From: Desulfobacteraceae bacterium
Lineage (GTDB): Bacteria; Desulfobacterota; Desulfobacteria; Desulfobacterales; Desulfobacteraceae
Direction: 5' to 3'
Length of the DNA stretch: 32,557 nt
Assembly (NCBI GenBank): GCA_024226935.1
Contig: JAAELK010000435.1
Span: forward strand, 1 to 32,557
A program made the position numbers and the translations under genes. This document shows positions 7,318-24,141 of this stretch, one piece after another; within the stretch, counting starts at the first letter, position 1, and each line of letters opens with the position of its first letter. Under the pieces are notes generated by a model. That model worked only from the letters and a program-made list of their open reading frames with translations. It made no database searches and was not told where the DNA came from.

Positions 7318-9933
7318 TTACCTCCCCTGGTCTTTATAAATTTTCACTGCAACGGCAGTTTCAATATTGCCGGTGATGGGATCATAATGTCTCAAATAAG
7401 AGGGAAGCAATTTACAAAAATTTGATCCCTTACCCCTGGCAATGGGGCGGCCGTCGGCCCAGAGCCCCCCTTGCCCTGAAATACCTACAACTCTTGGACT
7501 TTGAGCCTCCATGGTCTTGACAATGCCATTTTCCTTTACACCATACCTATTTTCCAGCCAGATGATATCTCCATCGGCAAGCCCCCTTTCGTCTGCCAGT
7601 GCCCTGTTCAAAGTGATGGTGAATGTATAGGGACACATCTTGGACACTTCATCCACGTAGGGGTTTTGAAAGGTGGTATTATTTGTATGGAGAATATCCC
7701 GGTATGAAAAAGCCAGCAAGTCATACTCAGAATCCAGCTCTTTATGGGAAGTTGGCACAAACCAGTCGGGCATGGGAGTATACTGGTCCAATTCCATTTC
7801 CAGCTCAAAACCGGTATCTTCTATGATTTTTTCAACCGCCCTTCTATCATGGAGCAAAAATTCCATATAAACCGGACATCTGCTTTGGGTATTCCACCGC
7901 CAATAAACGTCTTCGATGGGTTTATGCCAGGTTGCATACCCCTGTTTTTCCACCTTTTCCTTGTCATCTCCATAAACCCAGCGCATATATCTTTCACCGA
8001 TCTGCTTCCAGTTCAGGACCTCTCCCGGTTTGATCTTAAGGGCTTCATCGGTAACCCCATAATAGTTGTTCAGGCTTTCATTAAATTTATCTAAAACCCC
8101 CACACGCTGGGCCACGTCAATATAAACATCCATGAAGAACCTGGATTCGCCAATGGGCTCAGCCACAGGTTGCTGTAGGTGCACAAACCAGTCTTCGTTG
8201 GAAGGAGACCCGGAAAAAAAGAAAGCATCAATTTCCGAAGACCAGCAATCTTTTTCAAGATAGGAAACATCGGGCAGAATAATATCACCAATGGCCTGGT
8301 CCGTCTCATTGACCCAAAGATCCATCTGAACCACAAAACAATCTTTAAAATTTTCCACTGCCACATCCCAGTCGGACTGGCTGATAATAAAGTTGGCTGC
8401 AATCCCGAAGATCATTTCCGGCTTGGCTCCCATGCCAAATTTTTCATGGATATAATCACGCTCTTTTACATAGGGGATATGGGAAAGGGTGCAATGGGTC
8501 CAAAAATCCACACAACCATTATTATCGCAGGGCACACTGGGAATATGGACCGGCCAGGGATCATGGGAATAAAAAACAGCCGGAATCAGGACACCGTCCT
8601 CGCCGATTCTCGGCATCCGCTCATATTGTCCCCCTGGATATTTTCGTCGTTTGGAAGGCCATCCCATGGTACCCCCGGGAACATCTTCGGCCCCCACCAG
8701 CTGACTCATAAGATCGATTGCCGCCACCTGGTGAATACCATTGGAATGTCCCTGGGAACCACGAAAAGTAACCGAAGCTACAGGTCTATAGGGAAAACTC
8801 TGCCCTTCAATTGTGATGGTGGAACCGATCTGGGCATTATCCACCCAATCTTTGGCCACCTTAAGAATGGTGCCCACGGGAACCGTTGAAATCTGGGATG
8901 CCCATTGGGGGGTAAATTGTTTCAAATGTTGCTTTAAGGCTTCAAAACAGGGACGAACTTTTTCCCCTTTGTATTCATATTCTCCATAGAGAGAAAAATC
9001 CTCGTGGGCAATGGAGTTATCATCAAACTCTTTAATTTTACCTTCCTTGCCGTCAAACACCAGGGGTTTATTGCTTTTTTCATGGCGAATAAAAGTACCG
9101 TCTTCCCGGATAAGATATACAAAATTTGTTTTGGCTTTCAGATAGAGTTCATCAATTTCACCCCGGGTGTTGAGAATATAGTTGGCGATTGCAAGCCCTA
9201 CCGCCGTGTCTGTTCCCGGCAAAATGGGCACCCATTCAGTGGCCTTACCCCCGGCAAAGTTACCCATGGGATCAAAAACAACTTCCCTTGTGCCCCTTCT
9301 TATGGCATCTGCACGAAGTCTTGCATTGGTCATGGCCGAATGCCCGGATCCTGTCCCCTTACTGGAGCCCCATTTAAGAACATATTTTGTATACCGCCAA
9401 TCAGGGGCTATGGACCATGCTCCGTGGATGAGTCCCCCCAACATATGGGCGGCATTTCCGCAATGAAGACTGCCGCCACCGATAATAAAATTACCATTAT
9501 TTTTCACCCCGAATGCCTGGGCATAAAAATAAGCATGGTTATGGGGACCGTCACTTGCTCTCATGGTCTGGTTGGTAAAAAGAATCTTATTTGGATCATC
9601 TTCCATGATTTTTTTCATCCGGGTGGAAATTTCTTCAAGAGCTTCTTCCCATTCTATCTCCTTCCACATGGGGTCCACCCCTATTCCTTTTTCAGGGTTA
9701 GTTCTTCGCAAAGGTTTTTTAATGCGATTAGGATCATGGTAATACATTAATCCTGCAGCGCCTTTACCGCAAAGACCTGCTCCATCTCCTCCCATGGTGC
9801 TTTCTTTAATACCCTCAATTTTCACAGGCACACCATTGACCACGCGAACCTTGGCACCACAACCGCAATAACACACTCCACAGGTGGTATTTACCCATTT
9901 ATCTTCCCAAATTTCATCTGTTTTATAGGTCAT
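7318..9933 (-). CDS. padB: Phenylacetyl-CoA:acceptor oxidoreductase, molybdopterin catalytic subunit
   Basis: This is an 871-residue DMSO-reductase-family molybdenum enzyme, likely oxidising phenylacetyl-CoA to phenylglyoxylate. The N-terminal 4Fe-4S site is C18-x2-C21-x3-C25 with C55 in LCGKG. A cysteine at about 158 in GGGSLHCGNAAHM is the expected Mo ligand, as in PsrA/NapA-type enzymes. The C-terminal MopB-binding domain ends with LLPSYLRHYDPITGN. There is no twin-arginine signal, so the enzyme faces the cytoplasm, which suits an acyl-CoA substrate and argues against periplasmic polysulfide or thiosulfate reductases. Size fits the roughly 93-kDa large subunit described for Thauera. The start has an AGGGGGA site. 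The substrate assignment depends mainly on the adjoining 2-oxoacid oxidoreductase genes. Acetylene hydratase and other cytoplasmic relatives are the alternatives. Confidence 0.75.
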   Translation of the reverse strand: MTYKTDEIWEDKWVNTTCGVCYCGCGAKVRVVNGVPVKIEGIKESTMGGDGAGLCGKGAAGLMYYHDPNRIKKPLRRTNPEKGIGVDPMWKEIEWEEALEEISTRMKKIMEDDPNKILFTNQTMRASDGPHNHAYFYAQAFGVKNNGNFIIGGGSLHCGNAAHMLGGLIHGAWSIAPDWRYTKYVLKWGSSKGTGSGHSAMTNARLRADAIRRGTREVVFDPMGNFAGGKATEWVPILPGTDTAVGLAIANYILNTRGEIDELYLKAKTNFVYLIREDGTFIRHEKSNKPLVFDGKEGKIKEFDDNSIAHEDFSLYGEYEYKGEKVRPCFEALKQHLKQFTPQWASQISTVPVGTILKVAKDWVDNAQIGSTITIEGQSFPYRPVASVTFRGSQGHSNGIHQVAAIDLMSQLVGAEDVPGGTMGWPSKRRKYPGGQYERMPRIGEDGVLIPAVFYSHDPWPVHIPSVPCDNNGCVDFWTHCTLSHIPYVKERDYIHEKFGMGAKPEMIFGIAANFIISQSDWDVAVENFKDCFVVQMDLWVNETDQAIGDIILPDVSYLEKDCWSSEIDAFFFSGSPSNEDWFVHLQQPVAEPIGESRFFMDVYIDVAQRVGVLDKFNESLNNYYGVTDEALKIKPGEVLNWKQIGERYMRWVYGDDKEKVEKQGYATWHKPIEDVYWRWNTQSRCPVYMEFLLHDRRAVEKIIEDTGFELEMELDQYTPMPDWFVPTSHKELDSEYDLLAFSYRDILHTNNTTFQNPYVDEVSKMCPYTFTITLNRALADERGLADGDIIWLENRYGVKENGIVKTMEAQSPRVVGISGQGGLWADGRPIARGKGSNFCKLLPSYLRHYDPITGNIETAVAVKIYKDQGR

Positions 9934-13944: not shown

Positions 13945-14796
13945 ATGTGTAATAACCACAAAATTCCTTTTACTTGTATTTGTTTTTTTCTTTGGCTCAA
14001 TTTTTTTTCTATTCCCCTTTCTGATCAACTCAACTTTTCAAAAAATATCCCGGGTATTTCTCTCGTATATGCCGACCAATCCGCCAACAAAAATGAAAAA
14101 AATCCAGCGAAAACAACCAGTGAAATAATAGAAAAAACTGGAAATACCATGTCTGGAAATAACAACAAGACGCACTTGGAAAATAATGGTAAAATGCCGA
14201 TACAAGATGGTGCCATGATGAAAAAAATGATTGAATCCGGGGTAGCGCTAAAATTATTTCGACCACAATTATATCCAAGCATGACTGTGGTTCACGATCC
14301 AACCCAAGAATCTTTAAACACCTTTGAACAACTTTCATTAAAAAGAATGTTACGAGGATATGAATTATTATCGGAAAGCATGAATCAAATTTCCATGGCC
14401 GTCACATCCAAAGATCTCCCAAAAATCCGAAAAACCCAGGAACAACTCCGGACAGGTTATGAGCAGCTGACAAGTGGTATTTCAACATACCTGAAACTTA
14501 CAGACAAAGAATCTGCCCATGAAATTGGTTTGAATTGGTTCAAGCAGGAGTTAAATATTGACTATTCTTCGCCCTTCCATCCCCAGGATATATTGTGGGG
14601 AATGGATGCAAAGCGCTTGATCATGTGCATAATCATGCTCTCCGGATTTATTTTAGCGATTATCGCTTACGCCTATCGCATGGGAAGAGTAAAAGCTTTG
14701 TTTCAAAAAATTTCTACAGGTGACTCTGTAAAATCGTCCCCTATAAAATCTGATCCCGTAAAATCTGACAATAACATAACGGTCAAGATAGAATAA
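13945..14796 (+). CDS. Unrecognised membrane-anchored protein, first gene of a cytochrome operon
   Basis: I do not recognise a family. The 283-residue protein starts with a hydrophobic segment (about residues 8-28, signal or anchor), then a low-complexity Asn/Lys/Thr-rich linker to about 85, a helical middle rich in Leu, Gln and Met (about 110-190), a second hydrophobic segment near residues 229-247 (LIMCIIMLSGFILAIIAYAY) and a short basic tail. The middle therefore lies in the periplasm. It has no CxxCH motif and almost no Cys after the signal. An AAAGGTAAG site precedes the ATG. The next gene starts three bases after its stop, so it probably acts with the cytochromes, perhaps as an assembly or docking subunit (inference). 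Confidence 0.7.
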   Translation: MCNNHKIPFTCICFFLWLNFFSIPLSDQLNFSKNIPGISLVYADQSANKNEKNPAKTTSEIIEKTGNTMSGNNNKTHLENNGKMPIQDGAMMKKMIESGVALKLFRPQLYPSMTVVHDPTQESLNTFEQLSLKRMLRGYELLSESMNQISMAVTSKDLPKIRKTQEQLRTGYEQLTSGISTYLKLTDKESAHEIGLNWFKQELNIDYSSPFHPQDILWGMDAKRLIMCIIMLSGFILAIIAYAYRMGRVKALFQKISTGDSVKSSPIKSDPVKSDNNITVKIE

Positions 14797-14799
14797 AAT

Positions 14800-15471
14800 A
14801 TGAAAAAAATAGAATCCCGTATAACTCTCTTCATCCTGATCGGTTTATTTATCCTGGCCTATATGGGTGATATATATCAAGTGCCCAGGTTTGCTGGCAG
14901 TGCCCTGGGGGGACTTATAGGAATTATTGCAGCCTTTTTTATGTTCTTTCCCGCCATATATATGCTGGTCAAACGTATAAAATTTATACGAAAAGCCGTG
15001 ACAAAAATCATTCCCAAACATACCCTGCTTACGATTCATATTTATGCAACATTATTTGCGGCCATACTTACATTTGTGCATTCTGGAAATATGGAGAAAA
15101 CTTTTTATGGTCAAGCATTGACTCTCTTGTTGCTCATCATCATAGGCAGCGGTTACACAGGAAGATATTTAATGGGTTTTCTCATAAAAGATATCAAAAA
15201 ACAAAAAGCCATCCTGACACGTATGGACATGGAATACACAAAATATACAAATGGTGTGGAAAAGACACAACATCCGGCCTTTGCAGCCTCCCTGCCGGAA
15301 ATAATTTTCGCAATGGCAGACTTGGATTTTTCCATCCATGCCCAGGATAAAGTAAAAAAACTATTTTCCCGGTGGCTGAACTTCCATATCGGAATAACCA
15401 TGATATTTTATGCCATCCTCGTGTTGCACATATGGACCGGAATCGACTACGGAATCAGGTGGTATCCATGA
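14800..15471 (+). CDS. Di-haem cytochrome b-type membrane protein
   Basis: This 223-residue membrane protein has about five hydrophobic segments. Two of them carry His pairs spaced alike: H80 and H94, and H196 and H210. This H-x13-H plus H-x13-H pattern in two helices is what ferric-reductase/NOX-like and related cytochromes use to hold two stacked b haems across the membrane. There is no flavin or NADPH domain, so the electron partner should be quinol or the co-encoded cytochrome c. A cytoplasmic loop of about 60 residues lies between the third and last helices. The stop overlaps the cytochrome c start (ATGA), which implies coupled synthesis. Its exact family is unknown to me. Confidence 0.72.
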   Translation: MKKIESRITLFILIGLFILAYMGDIYQVPRFAGSALGGLIGIIAAFFMFFPAIYMLVKRIKFIRKAVTKIIPKHTLLTIHIYATLFAAILTFVHSGNMEKTFYGQALTLLLLIIIGSGYTGRYLMGFLIKDIKKQKAILTRMDMEYTKYTNGVEKTQHPAFAASLPEIIFAMADLDFSIHAQDKVKKLFSRWLNFHIGITMIFYAILVLHIWTGIDYGIRWYP

Positions 15472-16304
15472 GCAAGAAAAAAAAATCATTGGTCCTTTTA
15501 ATCAACCTGATGCTTTTTGTCGCTGTTCTCCTTTTTTTTGGTTTGACACCCTATCGGTACCGGGCAAGCAATCCGGGCCCCTTATCAACCTCCCACCTGT
15601 TTCTTCTTGATAACTGCAATGCCTGTCACACAACCGCCCGCAGCGTTGACCCGGAAAAATGCAGATTTTGTCATGATACCGATGCCATTGTCTTTAACCG
15701 CCAGGTGGTATCATTTCATTCAACAATCACCAGCTGCAAAGAATGTCATGTCGAACATCACAAAACCAGGACACAACCCACCCTCATGAACCACGATGCT
15801 TTGACGCTTATTTTCAAAAGACAAATATTAAAAAATGATTCAATGAATGGATCCAAATCGGACACCCCCCAAGAATACACTGAGCATAAATTACACGAAT
15901 TTGAAAAAATTCTTTCGGATAGATATCCACTGGTAGATGCCAAAGAAGCTATTTTAAACTGTACCACCTGCCATTCTGATCAAGACCCCCATCAAGGCTC
16001 TTTTGGTTCTTCTTGCATAGAATGCCACACGATCGACAAATGGAGTGTTCCAGGATATATCCATCCGCCTGATACCAATAGGGATTGCAAACAATGCCAT
16101 ATCGGTCCCCTATGTCACTATACCCCCATGTTCAAAAAACGTTGTGAAAAAATGTTAGGAAAAAAAGATACCGATGTCAACGCTTGCTATGTATGCCACA
16201 CCGTAAACTCATGGCAATATCTGAAGGGCATTGGATGGTTCACCATATTTCCATATTCAGCAAAAAACAAAAAAATTGACAGTCTTTCAATTCATCCCCA
16301 ATAA
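15468..16304 (+). CDS. Membrane-anchored heptahaem cytochrome c
   Basis: This 278-residue protein has an N-terminal hydrophobic segment (residues 7-26) after four lysines, probably an uncleaved anchor, and seven CxxCH haem-c motifs at C50, C65, C90, C165, C183, C207 and C240. A 70-residue haem-free stretch separates the third and fourth motifs, giving a 3+4 arrangement. Further His residues (for example 84, 97, 98, 175) could be distal ligands. I start at ATG 15468, which overlaps the stop of the cytochrome b gene. An earlier in-frame start at 15372 lies inside that gene and would hide the anchor. Likely role: periplasmic electron transfer from the b-type partner to soluble cytochromes such as the c3 pool; the partner is inferred. 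Confidence 0.85.
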   Translation: MSKKKKSLVLLINLMLFVAVLLFFGLTPYRYRASNPGPLSTSHLFLLDNCNACHTTARSVDPEKCRFCHDTDAIVFNRQVVSFHSTITSCKECHVEHHKTRTQPTLMNHDALTLIFKRQILKNDSMNGSKSDTPQEYTEHKLHEFEKILSDRYPLVDAKEAILNCTTCHSDQDPHQGSFGSSCIECHTIDKWSVPGYIHPPDTNRDCKQCHIGPLCHYTPMFKKRCEKMLGKKDTDVNACYVCHTVNSWQYLKGIGWFTIFPYSAKNKKIDSLSIHPQ

Positions 16305-16425: not shown

Positions 16426-16485
16426 ATGAAAGCCAAGCATTTAAATCAAGCAAGACCTTCTGGAAAAGAGATTATCGAATCATGA
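16426..16485 (+). CDS. Possible 19-residue leader ORF coupled to the corrinoid-activation genes
   Basis: ATG 16426 follows a good AGAGGGG site (from 16415) and encodes MKAKHLNQARPSGKEIIES before a TGA that overlaps the next gene's ATG (ATGA at 16482-16485). The neighbour's own ribosome-binding site is weaker, so translation of this ORF may drive it. The peptide has no motif I recognise. It may be a leader peptide or the remnant of a lost upstream gene's start. Confidence 0.35.
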   Translation: MKAKHLNQARPSGKEIIES

Positions 16486-17216
16486 CTGCTGATCTTGTCC
16501 TTCCCATCGATACACAACCCCATGTTCTCTCCCCCATAAAAGTTGATCTGACTTTTCAAGATCTTAAACAAAAAATTACAACTTCGACTGATCATCCTGA
16601 AATTATAAAAATTGCAAAAAAAACACTTGATATGGCCCAAGGCATTTGGAACCCAAAAGCTGTATATCAGTGGTTTGAATTCCAAACCACCGGTAAAAAC
16701 AGTTCAGGAAATATAATTCAAGGCCCCAATAATCTGGTAAATTTTGATTTCGGGTGTTCCATCAAATTTTTAACCAAGGCAGAATATGCTCTAATCTCAG
16801 TTTACACCCCGGGACAAGGGCTTGAGCAAAAATCAAAACAAGCCTCATCAAAGGGTGATTTACTGGAAGCATATTTTCTTGACCTCATTGGTCTGATAAT
16901 TCTTGATAAAATCAGCCTGGTAATCACAAAAATAGCCGAAAAGCAGGCCGCAAATATAGGATGGGGAGTAAGCCCATTTTTGAGTCCAGGTTCAGTTCAT
17001 GGGTGGAAAACCAAAGACCAGACAAAACTTTGTCGGCTTTTACCCCTTGAAAAAATCGATGTAAAAATTGGAACCAATGCAGTCCTATCACCCTTTAAAA
17101 CAATTTCTTGTTTAATTGGTTTGGGTCCCAGATATGATGATAGGCTGGTTGGAACAACCTGCCAGGTCTGCGCAAAGAATCATGATTGCCGGATAAAAAA
17201 GGATCAAAAAACTTAG
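16482..17216 (+). CDS. MetH activation-domain-like protein
   Basis: The C-terminal half resembles the S-adenosylmethionine-binding activation domain of cobalamin-dependent methionine synthase: GWGVSPFLSPGSVHGW then a KDQTKLCRLLPLEKIDVKIG segment and the SPFKTISCLIGLG end. The first 80 residues recall the short proteins that carry this domain alone. It closes with a Cys cluster, C-x2-C-x5-C (CQVCAKNHDC), which may hold a metal or Fe-S centre. The protein has 244 residues. The next gene starts immediately after its TAG, and that gene is a corrinoid reductive activator, so a shared role in reactivating a Co(II) corrinoid protein is likely. No methionine synthase or other corrinoid protein is adjacent. 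Confidence 0.65.
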   Translation: MTADLVLPIDTQPHVLSPIKVDLTFQDLKQKITTSTDHPEIIKIAKKTLDMAQGIWNPKAVYQWFEFQTTGKNSSGNIIQGPNNLVNFDFGCSIKFLTKAEYALISVYTPGQGLEQKSKQASSKGDLLEAYFLDLIGLIILDKISLVITKIAEKQAANIGWGVSPFLSPGSVHGWKTKDQTKLCRLLPLEKIDVKIGTNAVLSPFKTISCLIGLGPRYDDRLVGTTCQVCAKNHDCRIKKDQKT

Positions 17217-18806
17217 ATGTCAAACAAAAATCTTCATATTTTACCCCATGATAAAAATATCAAAATCAAACCCGGCAAAAGCCTGATAGAATCACTTATG
17301 AATCAGGGTATTTTTTTAAGATCCGATTGCGGCGGTAAAGGAATCTGTGGAAAATGCCGGGTCAAAAAAATTTCAAATAATGGGGACAATAAATTTATAA
17401 ACTCCTGCACATATATGGTTTCAAAAAATCTTCAGATTGAAATACCAGAATCTTCCATGCAGTCTTGTCATATTCTCAACAAAGCACCGGTATCTCTTCC
17501 TGAAATATTCACAAACAGCTTTAAAAAAAATAATGGAAAAAAATGCCATGGAGTTGCCGTGGATCTGGGCACAACAACCATAGCAATTTACTTGATCAAC
17601 ACCGATAGAGGTAAGATTCTTTCTTCATTGGCCATAAAAAATCCCCAATCTTTTTATGGGGATGACGTTATGAGTCGTATTAGTGCCATCGGACAGGAGA
17701 AAAAAAAACTTAGGACTTTGCAAAAGATAGTTGTCAAGGCCATAGAGTGGGGCATCAAAGAACTCTTAACCTCACTTGATTTGAAAAAAAATACGATTTC
17801 TCAAATGGTGGCGGTTGGTAATCCAACAATGATCCACATATTGACAGGGATCGATCCAAAACCCATTGGAATTTCTCCCCATCAACCAGCTTTTTATGAA
17901 GCAAAAAGTATTCAATCAAATGAATTAGGCTTTAAATTGGAAAATTTTCCAATTCAAACTTTGCCCCAGGTGTCAGGCTTTATAGGAGGAGACATTCTCA
18001 GTGCCGCCATTGCCATTGATCTTGAGAATAAACCCGATGGCACTCTATTGGTGGATCTGGGGACTAATGGAGAACTTGTGCTCAAGGTAAATAATAGATT
18101 CTATGCAACCTCATGTGCAACCGGCCCTGCCTTTGAAGGTGCTTGTCTTTCCTGCGGGATGCAGGCTATCCCCGGGGCTATCACCGGGGTCCACATAAAA
18201 AACCTGCAAGAGTTACCCGAATATACATTTGTCAATCCATTAAACACTTCCGGGCAAAGGCCGGCTGGGATCTGTGGAACAGGTATTATCAGTGCCGTGG
18301 CCCAATTGTATAAAAACAAGATTATAAAGCCGGATGGTGCTTTTACAAAAGATATTATTCTTCCAGCTTTAAAGAAAAACAGTTCGGGTAAAATACAATA
18401 TATTATAGTGCCTGAAAAATTTTCCCGGGATGGTTCTGAAATTTTCATCAGCCAGAAGGATATTCGTTCTGTTCAACTTGGTAAGGCCGCATTAAGTACC
18501 GCAATAAAATTTCTTTTAAAAAAAGCAAAAATTGATAAACCTGAAAAAATCATCATCGCCGGGGCACTGGGGACATTTCTCGACAAGAATGATATGATAA
18601 CCCTGGGAATGATCCCATCCATGGCCCCTGACAAAATAGAAACCGCCGGGAATTTAGCCGGTGTGGGTGCTATAATGGTCCTATGCAATGAGATCTACCT
18701 TAAAAAGTTAATAGAGATGAAAATTGATATAGTCGATCTCACCTGCAACCAAAATTTTCAAAACACCTTTATTAAAAGCTTAGGTTTTCCCCCCTGCCCC
18801 AAATAG
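17217..18806 (+). CDS. 2Fe-2S/ASKHA-domain reductive activator of corrinoid proteins (RACE type)
   Basis: This is an ATP-dependent activator that returns inactive Co(II) corrinoid to Co(I). Residues 1-80 form a plant-type 2Fe-2S domain with C38-x5-C44-x2-C47 and a fourth Cys at 64. After a linker, the ASKHA ATPase core (DUF4445-like) begins with VAVDLGTTTIAIYLINTDRG, continues with GDDVMSRISA, and has the second phosphate motif LLVDLGTNGELVL. IIIAGALGTFLDKNDMITLG is the adenosine motif seen in this family. The length of 529 is at the short end, as many members exceed 600. It is translated directly after the MetH-activation-like gene. The corrinoid partner must be encoded elsewhere. Confidence 0.8.
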   Translation: MSNKNLHILPHDKNIKIKPGKSLIESLMNQGIFLRSDCGGKGICGKCRVKKISNNGDNKFINSCTYMVSKNLQIEIPESSMQSCHILNKAPVSLPEIFTNSFKKNNGKKCHGVAVDLGTTTIAIYLINTDRGKILSSLAIKNPQSFYGDDVMSRISAIGQEKKKLRTLQKIVVKAIEWGIKELLTSLDLKKNTISQMVAVGNPTMIHILTGIDPKPIGISPHQPAFYEAKSIQSNELGFKLENFPIQTLPQVSGFIGGDILSAAIAIDLENKPDGTLLVDLGTNGELVLKVNNRFYATSCATGPAFEGACLSCGMQAIPGAITGVHIKNLQELPEYTFVNPLNTSGQRPAGICGTGIISAVAQLYKNKIIKPDGAFTKDIILPALKKNSSGKIQYIIVPEKFSRDGSEIFISQKDIRSVQLGKAALSTAIKFLLKKAKIDKPEKIIIAGALGTFLDKNDMITLGMIPSMAPDKIETAGNLAGVGAIMVLCNEIYLKKLIEMKIDIVDLTCNQNFQNTFIKSLGFPPCPK

Positions 18807-18909: not shown

Positions 18910-20499
18910 TTACATAACAGTACCGGCTATATTTGGTATTTCCATGCCATGATGAAACAGCCAGGCGACAAGCATCGCCACAGGTATAATAAATAAAAAC
19001 AAAGAGATAAGATATACCCACACCATTTTACCGAAACTGGCTTCAGCAAGTTTCCTGAAATCAGTAATGACCCCAAGACTGAAAAAAGTAAGCATAAAAA
19101 AGAGCTTCCGAAAACCTTTTTCCACTGGAATCACACCTGATTTTGCGGCCAAGAGTGTATCCATTCCCTCGGGCGCACCTGATCCGGCAGCAAAAAAAAC
19201 ACCCAGATATATAAACCAGGTGGCAAAATAACCAAATACAAACTTGGGGAATCTATGCCATATCTCCGACGGCAAAACGGTCTCTCCCGGCCTCTTATCA
19301 ATTTTATAGACCCATACCATGGCCAGCACAAACGCCCACAGTCCAATAAACATATCTATCCATACTTTTGTCATGACCGCACTGGCGGTAATCACGCCTT
19401 CAGGCCACTGTACAGCACCGTCAGTCTCAATGATTATCTTATTTCTCATAAATTCATCCAGCAATCCACCGGCTGCAGCATCAGCCCCGTCAGTCTTAAC
19501 CGCCATACCCATTGCAGAACCCGCCACCAGCGGATCCGCTGTTGTAGGCCATACATGTGTAAAAAAACCAGGCAAAACAACAAGTTCAATAACCGCCCAT
19601 ACAACAACCAGTGCCGAAACCATAACAGACACTACTGGTTTTGCCCTTACTGCACCACCGGTAGCTACAGCAGCGGAAACGCCGCAGATGGAGATACCCG
19701 AACCCAAAACCGCTGCGGTCTTTCTGGGAAGTTTAAATATCAAACGGGAGATGGTATAAACACCAGGCCAAAAAATTAAATAGGCAACAACTGTAGCCAC
19801 TGCACCTGCAAGAAACAACTCGCCGGTAAGTCCGGCCATCTCTTTACCCAGTTTTGCTGATGTTAGCGCAGCTTTAATTGGCAGATAACCAACTTTTACC
19901 CCTAAAAACACAATGGCAGTTTTGATATACCACTCAGGCTTTGCTGCTTCACTCAAAAAATTTGCGAATGGTTTAAAAAAATTTCCGATAATCAATCCGA
20001 CAATTAAAGCCAAAATAAAAGAAGCACCACCCCCAAGAGAAAGAGCAAAATCTAAACCATATTTTTCACAATTAATTGTATTAGCAGCAAAAAAAGCATG
20101 GTGACCGACAAACCATGTAGCAATCGTCATAAAGTAAATACATGTCCAACCAAGAAAAAACTTTCTCAGGTTCCATTTCATGCAAAAAGCGCCAAGACAT
20201 GTCGCACAAGTGAAAACTACATAGGTCCAAAGAATACTCCACCAGCCAAGCCCCCCATAAAATTCTTTTGAGGTTAAACTGTATTCACCACCAAGCGCAT
20301 GAAAAGCCGAAGCAATATCACCTTTCCCACCGTCTAAAGGATTAAACACCCATATTCTCGGATAGGTTGCCCAGCCAACAAGATCAATACCGGCTAAAGA
20401 TAAAAACCCCATCACAAAAAAGAATAGACCCAGCCAAACAGCCCACCAGTCTTCCTGGGTGGTCATACCCGAGTACCATTTTCTGTTTATGCTTGCCAT
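18910..20499 (-). CDS. Long YeiH-family (putative sulfate exporter) transporter
   Basis: This is a polytopic membrane protein of the YeiH/UPF0324 family. At 529 residues it is much longer than E. coli YeiH (about 350), because of an N-terminal extension with three or four hydrophobic helices (residues 15-135). Core features include PEWYIKTAIVFLGVKVGY, VLGSGISICGVSAAVATGG, a GAxxGG-like DAAAGGLLDEF stretch and FFMLTFFSLGVITDFRKLAE. The start has a strong GGAGGATATT-ATG context. It shares the motif EDWWAxWxG near its N-terminus with the second YeiH protein at 22340-24097. The substrate of the family is unproven; export of sulfate, sulfite or sulfonate-derived anions is the usual suggestion and would be relevant to a sulfate reducer. 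Confidence 0.82.
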   Translation of the reverse strand: MASINRKWYSGMTTQEDWWAVWLGLFFFVMGFLSLAGIDLVGWATYPRIWVFNPLDGGKGDIASAFHALGGEYSLTSKEFYGGLGWWSILWTYVVFTCATCLGAFCMKWNLRKFFLGWTCIYFMTIATWFVGHHAFFAANTINCEKYGLDFALSLGGGASFILALIVGLIIGNFFKPFANFLSEAAKPEWYIKTAIVFLGVKVGYLPIKAALTSAKLGKEMAGLTGELFLAGAVATVVAYLIFWPGVYTISRLIFKLPRKTAAVLGSGISICGVSAAVATGGAVRAKPVVSVMVSALVVVWAVIELVVLPGFFTHVWPTTADPLVAGSAMGMAVKTDGADAAAGGLLDEFMRNKIIIETDGAVQWPEGVITASAVMTKVWIDMFIGLWAFVLAMVWVYKIDKRPGETVLPSEIWHRFPKFVFGYFATWFIYLGVFFAAGSGAPEGMDTLLAAKSGVIPVEKGFRKLFFMLTFFSLGVITDFRKLAEASFGKMVWVYLISLFLFIIPVAMLVAWLFHHGMEIPNIAGTVM

Positions 20500-22020: not shown

Positions 22021-22343
22021 TCCAAAATAAATAGCCAACCAAACCCTAAAATCAAAAAACAAGAGATAAGGCCTCCAACAAAGCCTTTGGTCATTCCGTA
22101 ATCATCGCGTTTAGAATGTTTAAACGAATCTGCCAGATAATATTCACCGTCATAGGAGCCTGCCGAATCACCATACATATAGGCGCCAGAATCAATATCG
22201 CGTTCCTCTACGATCTGGGCAATTTGACCATAAATGGAAATATTTTTTTCCATATATGGTCCCACAACCCAGCCGAAAACCCAGATGAGAAAAGAATAAA
22301 AGATAAGCTGTCCCCACGCTTTTGCCTTGGGATTATCCATCAT
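22017..22343 (-). CDS. Two-span small membrane protein in the YeiH cluster
   Basis: This 108-residue protein has hydrophobic segments near residues 11-28 and 88-106 that enclose a polar, Tyr/Asp/Ser-rich loop (SGAYMYGDSAGSYDGEYYLA). Its ATG overlaps the stop of the 585-residue YeiH gene, and its stop overlaps the next gene's ATG, so three genes are joined by ATGA junctions. Such tight coupling suggests a transporter subunit with a roughly 60-residue loop on one face of the membrane. The family is not recognised. Confidence 0.68.
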   Translation of the reverse strand: MMDNPKAKAWGQLIFYSFLIWVFGWVVGPYMEKNISIYGQIAQIVEERDIDSGAYMYGDSAGSYDGEYYLADSFKHSKRDDYGMTKGFVGGLISCFLILGFGWLFILE

Positions 22344-24097
22344 ATGGTTGCCGTCAATCCGGGAAACACCACATAAAACATGATATATGCCATGATCAAG
22401 GTCAAAATCAAATTGAAGGACTGGCCAAACAAATAAAGAATCAACGGTTTCCCACCTTTAAAATGTTCTTTGAGTTCACGAAAATTAGTTGCAAGCCCTA
22501 TACTGACAAAAGACAGGGTGAAAAACCAGCCCCTGAAAAGATCAGATCCCCCCTTGATGGCGCCCTTATCAATCATGGCACGTCCAAGGCCATCCAGCTG
22601 CAAATTAAACCAGGAATAGATCAGGGAAAATACTATGGACGCAGCCATAAACCCAATGACAAATTTTGGAAACCGAAACCAGATTTCTCCCAGTCCTACC
22701 TTTGCTCCGGTCTCTTCCACTTCCACCCGGGTGGTAAAATACAAAGCTACAAAAAATGCTATCACCCCTATGAGAATATTCTGGATCATTTTTATGGTGG
22801 CTGCCACATAAAGAGCTTTCTCACCGAGGAATGCCCCGGCGGCAGCAACGGCACCAGAGGCATCAATGGTTCCACCCATCCAGGCACCGCCAAGGACCAT
22901 CTGTTTATCAAGGGGGAAGGTTCCTTTAATAAAAGCCGGCATCACAATCATCATGATGGCTGTAAACACCAGGGAAAGACCCACGGCAAGGGTCAACTCC
23001 TCTTTTTTCGCACGACAGGCCGAGGCCGCTGCAATGGCAGCAGAGACGCCGCACACTGACATATCCGAACAGATAACCGCATTCAACCGCTTGGAAGGTA
23101 TGTTAATTATTTTCTGGCCGAACCAATAGGTCACCAACCATACGGTGGGTGTCACAACCCAGGCAACAAAAATACCAGCCGTTCCAATGGTAATTATTTT
23201 TTCAAATAAAATTTTCGCTCCCAAAAGCACCAGCCCCGTCTTAATATAATATTCAGTCTGGACGGCAGGCATGGCCCATTTAGGGGTTCCAACGGTATTG
23301 GAAATCAACATTCCAAGCAAAATAGCCCAGGCTGCATACCCTACCCCGTAATGCTTCATGGTGACTTGATAACTAAAAAACCAGGCGACAACAGCCACGA
23401 CATAGACAAAGACAAACCCCAGGGCAAATTGTCTAAAGGGTACTCCCATGGTGGTAATTGGAATACCAAAAAGAACACAAAAAAACACCCCCAGGCCAAT
23501 AAGTTTACCAATCCTATTATAGGGTTTTACCTGGGTTTTCTTTTTAGCTGCAGCCGCTGCAAGCTTTGCATCACGCCATTTATCAATAGCAGTCGATGCG
23601 GATAAATTGAGCGCAGCATTTGTAAAACCGGCTGTTTGTGCAATCTTTTCGGCCCCAAAGGCCACAGCAAAACTAATTTCTTCTACTATCTTTTTCTTTA
23701 GATACCTGCCCCTGGCGGAAGCGGCCTTGGCATCCGCCTTTTCCTTACCCATGAAAAAAGCATCCATGGGATTATCTTTCCATCCATGGGGTTTAGCGGC
23801 AAAGCTTGTCAGCCACTTACCCGCTGGAATTTTTCTGACTTCTGCTTTTTTCTTGGCATCGGACATTTTATACCATGCAATGGTTTTGATAGCAGAGGTC
23901 CGCCTATCATCCTGACCATATTTTACCATGGCCTTATTAATAATTTCCTTCATTTCTCCCGAATGGGGAAAATAAACAAACATGGCCGCAATAAGAATAA
24001 AAAACCCGATCCAGATTGCCCACCAATCTTCTTTTTTCCACATTTGTGACCATTCCCACCTGCCCTGATCAACAACAATTCCATTACCTTCCTCCAT
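22340..24097 (-). CDS. Second long YeiH-family transporter with a charged N-terminal insert
   Basis: A 585-residue membrane protein. The first helix follows KKEDWWAIWIGFFILIAAMF, the same EDWWAxWxG motif as its paralogue. Then comes a soluble Lys/Ala-rich stretch of about 140 residues (roughly 45-185, with DAKAASARGRYLKKK and KLAAAAAKKKTQ) before the remaining helices. Core YeiH sequences include TEYYIKTGLVLLGAKILFEK, CSDMSVCGVSAAIAAASACR, GGTIDASGAVAAAGAFLGEK and FVSIGLATNFRELKEH. I start at ATG 24097 because GAGG lies six bases upstream; an earlier ATG at 24130 has no site. The inverted repeat at 24113-24141 lies just before it. Function is as for the paralogue, and the two may work as a pair. 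Confidence 0.8.
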   Translation of the reverse strand: MEEGNGIVVDQGRWEWSQMWKKEDWWAIWIGFFILIAAMFVYFPHSGEMKEIINKAMVKYGQDDRRTSAIKTIAWYKMSDAKKKAEVRKIPAGKWLTSFAAKPHGWKDNPMDAFFMGKEKADAKAASARGRYLKKKIVEEISFAVAFGAEKIAQTAGFTNAALNLSASTAIDKWRDAKLAAAAAKKKTQVKPYNRIGKLIGLGVFFCVLFGIPITTMGVPFRQFALGFVFVYVVAVVAWFFSYQVTMKHYGVGYAAWAILLGMLISNTVGTPKWAMPAVQTEYYIKTGLVLLGAKILFEKIITIGTAGIFVAWVVTPTVWLVTYWFGQKIINIPSKRLNAVICSDMSVCGVSAAIAAASACRAKKEELTLAVGLSLVFTAIMMIVMPAFIKGTFPLDKQMVLGGAWMGGTIDASGAVAAAGAFLGEKALYVAATIKMIQNILIGVIAFFVALYFTTRVEVEETGAKVGLGEIWFRFPKFVIGFMAASIVFSLIYSWFNLQLDGLGRAMIDKGAIKGGSDLFRGWFFTLSFVSIGLATNFRELKEHFKGGKPLILYLFGQSFNLILTLIMAYIMFYVVFPGLTATI

Positions 24098-24112
24098 AAT
24101 GAACCTCGCTTT

Positions 24113-24141
24113 TTGATTATGGGTTATCAAAAAATAATCAA
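24113..24141 (-). repeat. Inverted repeat before the 585-residue YeiH gene
   Basis: TTGATTAT (24113-24120) and ATAATCAA (24134-24141) are perfect inverted copies separated by 13 bases, 16 bases before the YeiH ATG. It may be an operator or a 5' leader hairpin that also ends trmL transcripts. Confidence 0.45.

Follow-up and report, generated by a model that had tools for sequence, protein, structure and literature searches.

What could feed a transmembrane haem wire that lacks the domain through which its relatives appear to take up electrons? The question is raised by three adjoining genes on contig JAAELK010000435.1 of a Desulfobacteraceae bacterium (assembly GCA_024226935.1), of which a stretch of 32,557 nucleotides, here called the window, was analysed. 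All three genes lie on the forward strand. Gene 1 (13945..14796) encodes an anchor protein of 283 residues, gene 2 (14800..15471) a di-haem b subunit of 223 residues and gene 3 (15468..16304) a membrane-anchored heptahaem c subunit of 278 residues. Gene 1 and the b gene are separated by a 3-base gap (14797-14799), and the b and c genes share an ATGA overlap (15468-15471). These positions and junctions agree with an initial annotation made from the sequence alone, and its view of the trio as one operon-like transmembrane electron-transfer module is supported. A promoter scan returned 12 promoter-like sites against a shuffle mean of 9.5, hence no excess, and a terminator scan returned none.

Hydropathy divides protein 1 into an N-terminal hydrophobic stretch (export signal), a helical domain, a single membrane helix (residues 225-243; 14617..14673, +) and a short tail. 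The helical domain is likely periplasmic and the tail cytoplasmic. The protein matches no Pfam family at E <= 0.001. Its N-terminal part is homologous to gene 1 of the relatives described below, and a model built from these relatives with the window excluded scores it at 96.7 bits. The b subunit has five hydrophobic helices and two H-x13-H pairs, H80 with H94 (15037..15081, +) and H196 with H210 (15385..15429, +). All 27 alignment rows share the four histidines; L046 as well as L043 and L045 (copies of L044) were dropped from this alignment. Lysine and arginine counts of the b loops from N- to C-terminus (3, 1, 7, 1, 11, 1) fit an N-in, C-out topology, which would place H80 and H196 near the cytosol and H94 and H210 near the periplasm. 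The b protein has no confident Pfam family, and searches of NCBIfam and of PDB sequences gave no relevant match. The c subunit carries a single N-terminal hydrophobic helix upstream of its CxxCH motifs, which are split into three (residues 50, 65 and 90; 15615..15749, +) and four (residues 165, 183, 207 and 240; 15960..16199, +). Seven CxxCH are found in c at 28 of 30 loci, with the remaining two truncated by contig ends. All seven motifs and seven further histidines are invariant in the c alignment (17/17 rows), enough to ligate seven bis-histidine haems. By sequence, c retrieves only general multihaem cytochromes from the PDB, including UndA (E 2.1e-5) and a tetrahaem cytochrome (E 5.8e-5). 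Its predicted structure has a mean pLDDT of 54.1 and was for this reason left unused. The haem motifs reported by the initial annotation thus recur throughout the relatives, and we agree that the window b has no flavin domain.

Genes for an anchor protein, a di-haem b and a heptahaem c also stand in this order in members of the Planctomycetota, Proteobacteria, Bdellovibrionota and Bacteroidota, and in a small number of Desulfobacterota. The order is kept at 28 of the 29 loci outside the window. The exception is L046, where the contig ends inside b and the 4.2 kb upstream hold no gene 1 or Fer2 open reading frame of at least 150 residues. GTDB contigs yielded no match when scanned with the single b sequence. 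With the b alignment they yielded 19 loci, which belong to Planctomycetota, Alpha- and Gammaproteobacteria, Bdellovibrionota and Desulfobacterota and in some cases to unclassified MAGs. The b gene also matches 52 plasmid records (E <= 1e-5), including plasmids of Sphingobium, Alteromonas, Legionella and Variovorax as well as of the Bacteroidota Spirosoma and Pontibacter, and 26 of the 52 are typed as conjugative. The N-terminal part of gene 1 matches 21 plasmid records, all among these 52. The initial annotation had held that gene 1 homologues without the cytochromes would speak against a complex, and on plasmids b accompanies gene 1 in all 21 records. It had also called the module unrecognised. 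No literature description or name for the family was found in open-licence PMC papers, and in this sense the term holds; as a family, the trio is present in five phyla.

The relatives differ from the window copy in how protein 1 ends. At 22 of the 29 loci, protein 1 continues after the membrane helix into a fusion of FAD_binding_6, NAD_binding_1 and Fer2 (Pfam; the domain type of L029, L042 and L049 was taken from Pfam, and protein 1 of L041 and L043 runs off the contig at the N-terminus). Protein 1 of the Desulfobacterota genome G421 has a fused Fer2 without the reductase, and that of Bradyrhizobium retains an IS-truncated remnant of NAD and Fer2 domains. On the Bradyrhizobium plasmid (pBBta01, L057), an IS3 element splits the protein 1 gene, and a second copy of gene 1 lies about 8 kb away. 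Three genomes (G127, G400 and G362) combine a short anchor with a stand-alone Fer2 gene of 88 residues, located between gene 1 and b. A fourth, G458 (L051), has a gene 1 of 122 residues and a ferredoxin frame interrupted by TGA at the first cluster cysteine, with ATA at the start position. This frame lies at 8189-8455 on the minus strand, with the TGA at 8342-8344 (residue 38 of 88), and the other ferredoxin genes start with ATG. The G458 genome encodes a tRNA-Sec (71.7 bits), which makes a selenocysteine ligand possible and a pseudogene equally so; the predicted fold of the 60 bases that begin with the TGA is no more stable than that of shuffled sequences (z -0.75). Overall, a [2Fe-2S] inlet is readable, fused or adjacent, in 27 of the 29 relatives. 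Lying C-terminal to the helix, the inlet domain would face the cytosol if the N-terminus is exported.

In the window, FAD/NAD(P) and [2Fe-2S] domains are absent both from gene 1 and from between genes 1 and 2, and the stop codon of gene 1 sits 3 bases 5' of b. We therefore class the window copy as a divergent derivative rather than a full member of the family. The last residues of protein 1, NNITVKIE and stop (14770..14796, +), resemble the C-terminus of a Fer2 domain and could be the scar of an in-frame FNR-Fer2 deletion. Applied to 561 proteins that lack a match to the Fer2 motif, a pattern for such a tail, chosen after the window tail had been seen, fits 3. Two of the three are gene 1 copies of G394 whose Fer2 was missed by the motif, which leaves the window protein. 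This tail suggests an in-frame deletion of the inlet, with the reservation that the pattern is post hoc. Elsewhere in the window genome, no dedicated ferredoxin or FNR-Fer2 partner was found, and the only Fer2 match is a frame of 655 residues on another contig.

We propose, with a probability of about 0.6, that the trio derives from a transmembrane conduit family, has lost its inlet through an in-frame deletion and now takes electrons either from a cytosolic, unlinked donor of the ferredoxin type or from menaquinol. The trio is a real and intact derivative of this family; gene order, haem ligands, homology and the missing domain are established by sequence. Protein 1 would anchor in the membrane with its helical domain facing the periplasm. 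The five-helix b would hold a cytosol-near haem between H80 and H196 and a periplasm-near haem between H94 and H210, and c would be anchored beside b with seven bis-histidine haems extending into the periplasm. The family inlet would be cytosolic, with electrons passing from NAD(P)H to FAD and on to the [2Fe-2S] cluster, all in the C-terminal region of protein 1, or else arriving from a separate [2Fe-2S] ferredoxin. Deprived of its inlet, the wire in the window would have to draw on one of these two sources. Most likely, electrons still pass through the trio from the cytosolic face of the membrane to cytochromes in the periplasm, despite the loss of the original inlet. Among possible donors, a cytosolic ferredoxin is our first choice and menaquinol the main rival, with decay of the module ranking third. 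What the comparison adds to the initial annotation is that the relatives possess an electron-intake domain, absent from the window copy.

By analogy with complexes of Geobacter sulfurreducens, b could instead oxidise menaquinol, for example from the neighbouring molybdenum-enzyme operon, and c could pass the electrons to periplasmic cytochromes. PMC7726332 describes CbcBA (Cbc5) as a b-type inner-membrane cytochrome with a heptahaem c, and CbcB as annotated with the cytochrome b561 family PF01292. CbcBA is reported to be tied to Fe(III) reduction near -0.21 V. The window trio likewise pairs a heptahaem c with a membrane b, and among named complexes CbcBA comes nearest to it in composition. CbcBA, with its di-haem-type b, hence runs against the initial annotation, which knew of no named complex with such a composition. 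CbcBA as described in the literature consulted includes no gene 1, whereas the window trio has one. CbcL joins a di-haem b membrane part to a multihaem c periplasmic part, all bis-histidine (PMC9129911). It is a single polypeptide with six helices and nine c haems, whereas the trio has separate genes, five hydrophobic helices and seven c haems. Such Geobacter complexes of b and multihaem c are described as menaquinol oxidisers in PMC12307469, PMC9129911 and PMC7726332. A quinol route would also suit a window without any cytosolic inlet domain and a trio standing head to head with an oxidoreductase operon. However, the window b lies outside the CbcB family. It does not match PF01292 (weak matches are confined to 3 of 17 family rows, with an E of 0.084 at best), and in hhalign the profile of b reaches a probability of 0.07% against the PF01292 set. 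The inlets of the 27 relatives further point to a cytosolic donor, either FAD/NAD(P) with [2Fe-2S] or a separate [2Fe-2S] ferredoxin, and not to quinol. In addition, menaquinol would usually be too oxidising to reduce low-potential periplasmic cytochromes in sulfate reducers. Taken together, we regard the quinol route as unlikely.

The head-to-head operon noted in the initial annotation is present and encodes a 2-oxoacid oxidoreductase. The assignment of this operon to Pad is unconfirmed because the scores for PadF and PadG fall under their cut-offs. The delta subunit scores 82.4 with the PadF model (cut-off 150) and passes the general PorD/KorD model with 91.9 bits (cut-off 60.05); the alpha subunit scores 338.9 with PadG (cut-off 700). 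A link of the module to phenylacetate was not found: the neighbourhoods that were read show no relative beside phenylacetate-metabolism genes, and of 86 genomes from the family to which the window belongs, 84 lack the module.

Within these 86 genomes, matches were confined to the window and G058, and among 145 relatives the window, G058 and G127 alone carried the b protein. When 395 Desulfobacterota genomes were searched with a profile, there were five strong matches apart from the window (G421, G394, G400, G458 and G362) and thirteen weaker ones. The contig of G058 (C498; L007/L043), 3169 bases long, is 99.8% identical end to end to a Halobacteriovoraceae contig (L044). We rejected G058 as a close full-form relative and treat this contig of a Desulfobacteraceae MAG as mis-binned. 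The window is thus probably the sole genuine carrier in its family. The window genome probably acquired the trio laterally.

The history of the inlet was considered on a tree of b proteins without L046 and without L043 and L045; L054 was also left out of the tree and AU analysis. The window b forms the longest branch (2.63). The four operons with a separate ferredoxin form one clade (100/100), and the window groups among full-form rows, in a set of 17 supported at 99/99. Placement of the window with the separate-ferredoxin clade is not rejected by the AU test (p 0.129). The window shares with the full-form rows a long periplasmic domain and an insert between haems 3 and 4 of c. The separate-ferredoxin form and the inlet-less form of the window probably each arose from the full form by a loss of its own. 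The window b also deviates at G84T, G87A, P88A and H97N, near-invariant sites beside the haems at which the other rows agree in 26, 25, 24 and 26 of 26. These changes indicate an altered pocket, through new function or relaxed constraint, and together with the long branch they make relaxed constraint or decay possible. The cytosolic loop of the window b is short at 69 residues, which is unspecific since three relatives with flavin domains have 68-73. Horizontal import, followed by loss of the inlet and a drift towards non-function, would account for the long branch, the missing inlet domain, the altered near-invariant residues and the near absence from the 86 family genomes (the window and the one mis-binned contig), but such decay is quite improbable given three intact frames with tight junctions and the retention of 4/4 b-haem ligands, 7/7 CxxCH and 7/7 distal histidines, much for unselected genes so diverged.

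The neighbours of the relatives may hint at the use of the conduit. Motifs of multicopper oxidases, P1B-ATPases or Met-rich Spy-like proteins occur near 15 of 28 non-window loci, in a scan run without a control, with unequal flanks and with near-duplicates included (L046 was left out and L008 stands for L047). Annotated plasmids, though not all of them, carry CopB, multicopper oxidase, RND efflux and copper-binding proteins close to the trio. The copper or metal linkage of the family is suggestive. On Glaciecola and Alteromonas plasmids, the trio lies directly 5' of a [NiFe] hydrogenase cluster, and in Methylocystis neither copper-resistance genes nor a hydrogenase cluster adjoin it. The Alteromonas macleodii plasmid pAM1A3 has the order gene 1, b, c, a 407-residue protein, hynD, hupH and hynS. 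The HynSL cluster is published as orf1/cyt/orf2/hynD/hupH/hynS/hynL. The orders coincide, so that Orf1 and Cyt would, going by gene order, be homologues of b and c. Both are reported in PMC3102683 as dispensable for maximal HynSL activity in E. coli. The HynSL-linked version of Alteromonas is the full form with FNR-Fer2, whereas the window copy is without it. The separate-ferredoxin operons of G400 and G458 have genes for a heptahaem cytochrome and for a barrel of about 670 residues close by (L050 3598-6379; L051 3451-6370). The G400 barrel scores 20.5 against MtrB_PioB, under the cut-off of 23. The window genome has no MtrB_PioB match, which is weak evidence of absence because the model misses the G400 barrel and stays under the cut-off in all 14 control genomes. 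The copper, hydrogenase and barrel neighbours of the relatives are all absent from the window, and the motif scan found no metal markers near its trio.

A broader scenario is more tentative than the proposal for the window itself, and we consider it somewhat short of even odds. The five-phylum family might send cytosolic NAD(P)H or ferredoxin electrons to periplasmic haems while bypassing quinones, spread on plasmids with copper-resistance genes, and serve periplasmic metal reduction or metal-stressed partners. In Desulfobacterota, the inlet might have been rebuilt stepwise, from FNR-Fer2 to Fer2 alone, to a separate ferredoxin and to none, with the window as the last step, re-plugged into another source. 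If the family works in this way, it would connect the cytosolic NAD(P)H/ferredoxin pool directly with periplasmic cytochromes, both in sulfate and metal reducers and in aerobes that carry it on conjugative plasmids. Such a route would explain genes labelled merely 'iron reductase', 'hypothetical protein' and 'cytochrome c3 family protein' near copper-resistance operons and the Alteromonas hydrogenase. The window copy would then be a natural experiment, a haem wire minus its inlet, on whether such a wire works and what feeds it.

The family resembles NADPH oxidases and ferric reductases (SpNOX, FRE) in its two predicted transmembrane haems, ligated by paired histidines on two helices. The relatives further share with these enzymes a cytosolic FAD/NAD(P) reductase that would feed the haems, which is absent in the window. 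Their reductase is, unlike that of NADPH oxidases and ferric reductases, on a separate polypeptide from b and includes a [2Fe-2S] domain. The outlet also differs, being oxygen or iron in these enzymes and seven c haems in the trio. Structural comparison of the window b model (pLDDT 82.2) with VIA-align places SpNOX in row 11 (Z 8.3, 123 aligned residues, rmsd 4.3, 15% identity), tied with unrelated helical bundles and with b561 at 7.9. Foldseek returned 0 matches at E <= 0.001 for the same model, with SpNOX at rank 44 (E 2.9). By sequence, the b profile reaches a probability of 0.5% against four Ferric_reduct proteins, and PF01794 does not match the window b (weak matches in 4 of 17 rows, with an E of 0.045 at best). 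These comparisons do not establish homology with the ferric reductase/NADPH oxidase family.

Clearer kin form a wider set of gene pairs in Desulfobacterota, in which b proteins with two H-x13-H pairs also adjoin a multihaem c (L014, L015, L016, L018, L021 and L025). These pairs match the profile of the window family at 99.9% (E 8e-34) and on this sequence evidence are clearly related to it. They differ in having 8 to 13 CxxCH in the available pieces, several of which end at the locus edge, and no gene 1 there. Two of these pairs were scanned against NCBIfam, which gave no named family for either.

Downstream of the trio, the window encodes on the forward strand (16482-18806) a 244-residue protein that matches no Pfam family and, after it, a RACo-like corrinoid activator (Fer2, Raco_middle and RACo_C_ter). 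The Fer2 of this activator is the sole one near the trio, and nothing ties the activator to it. Further on, two similar large multi-helix membrane proteins are encoded on the minus strand (18910-20499 and 22340-24130), which may be YeiH-like transporters.
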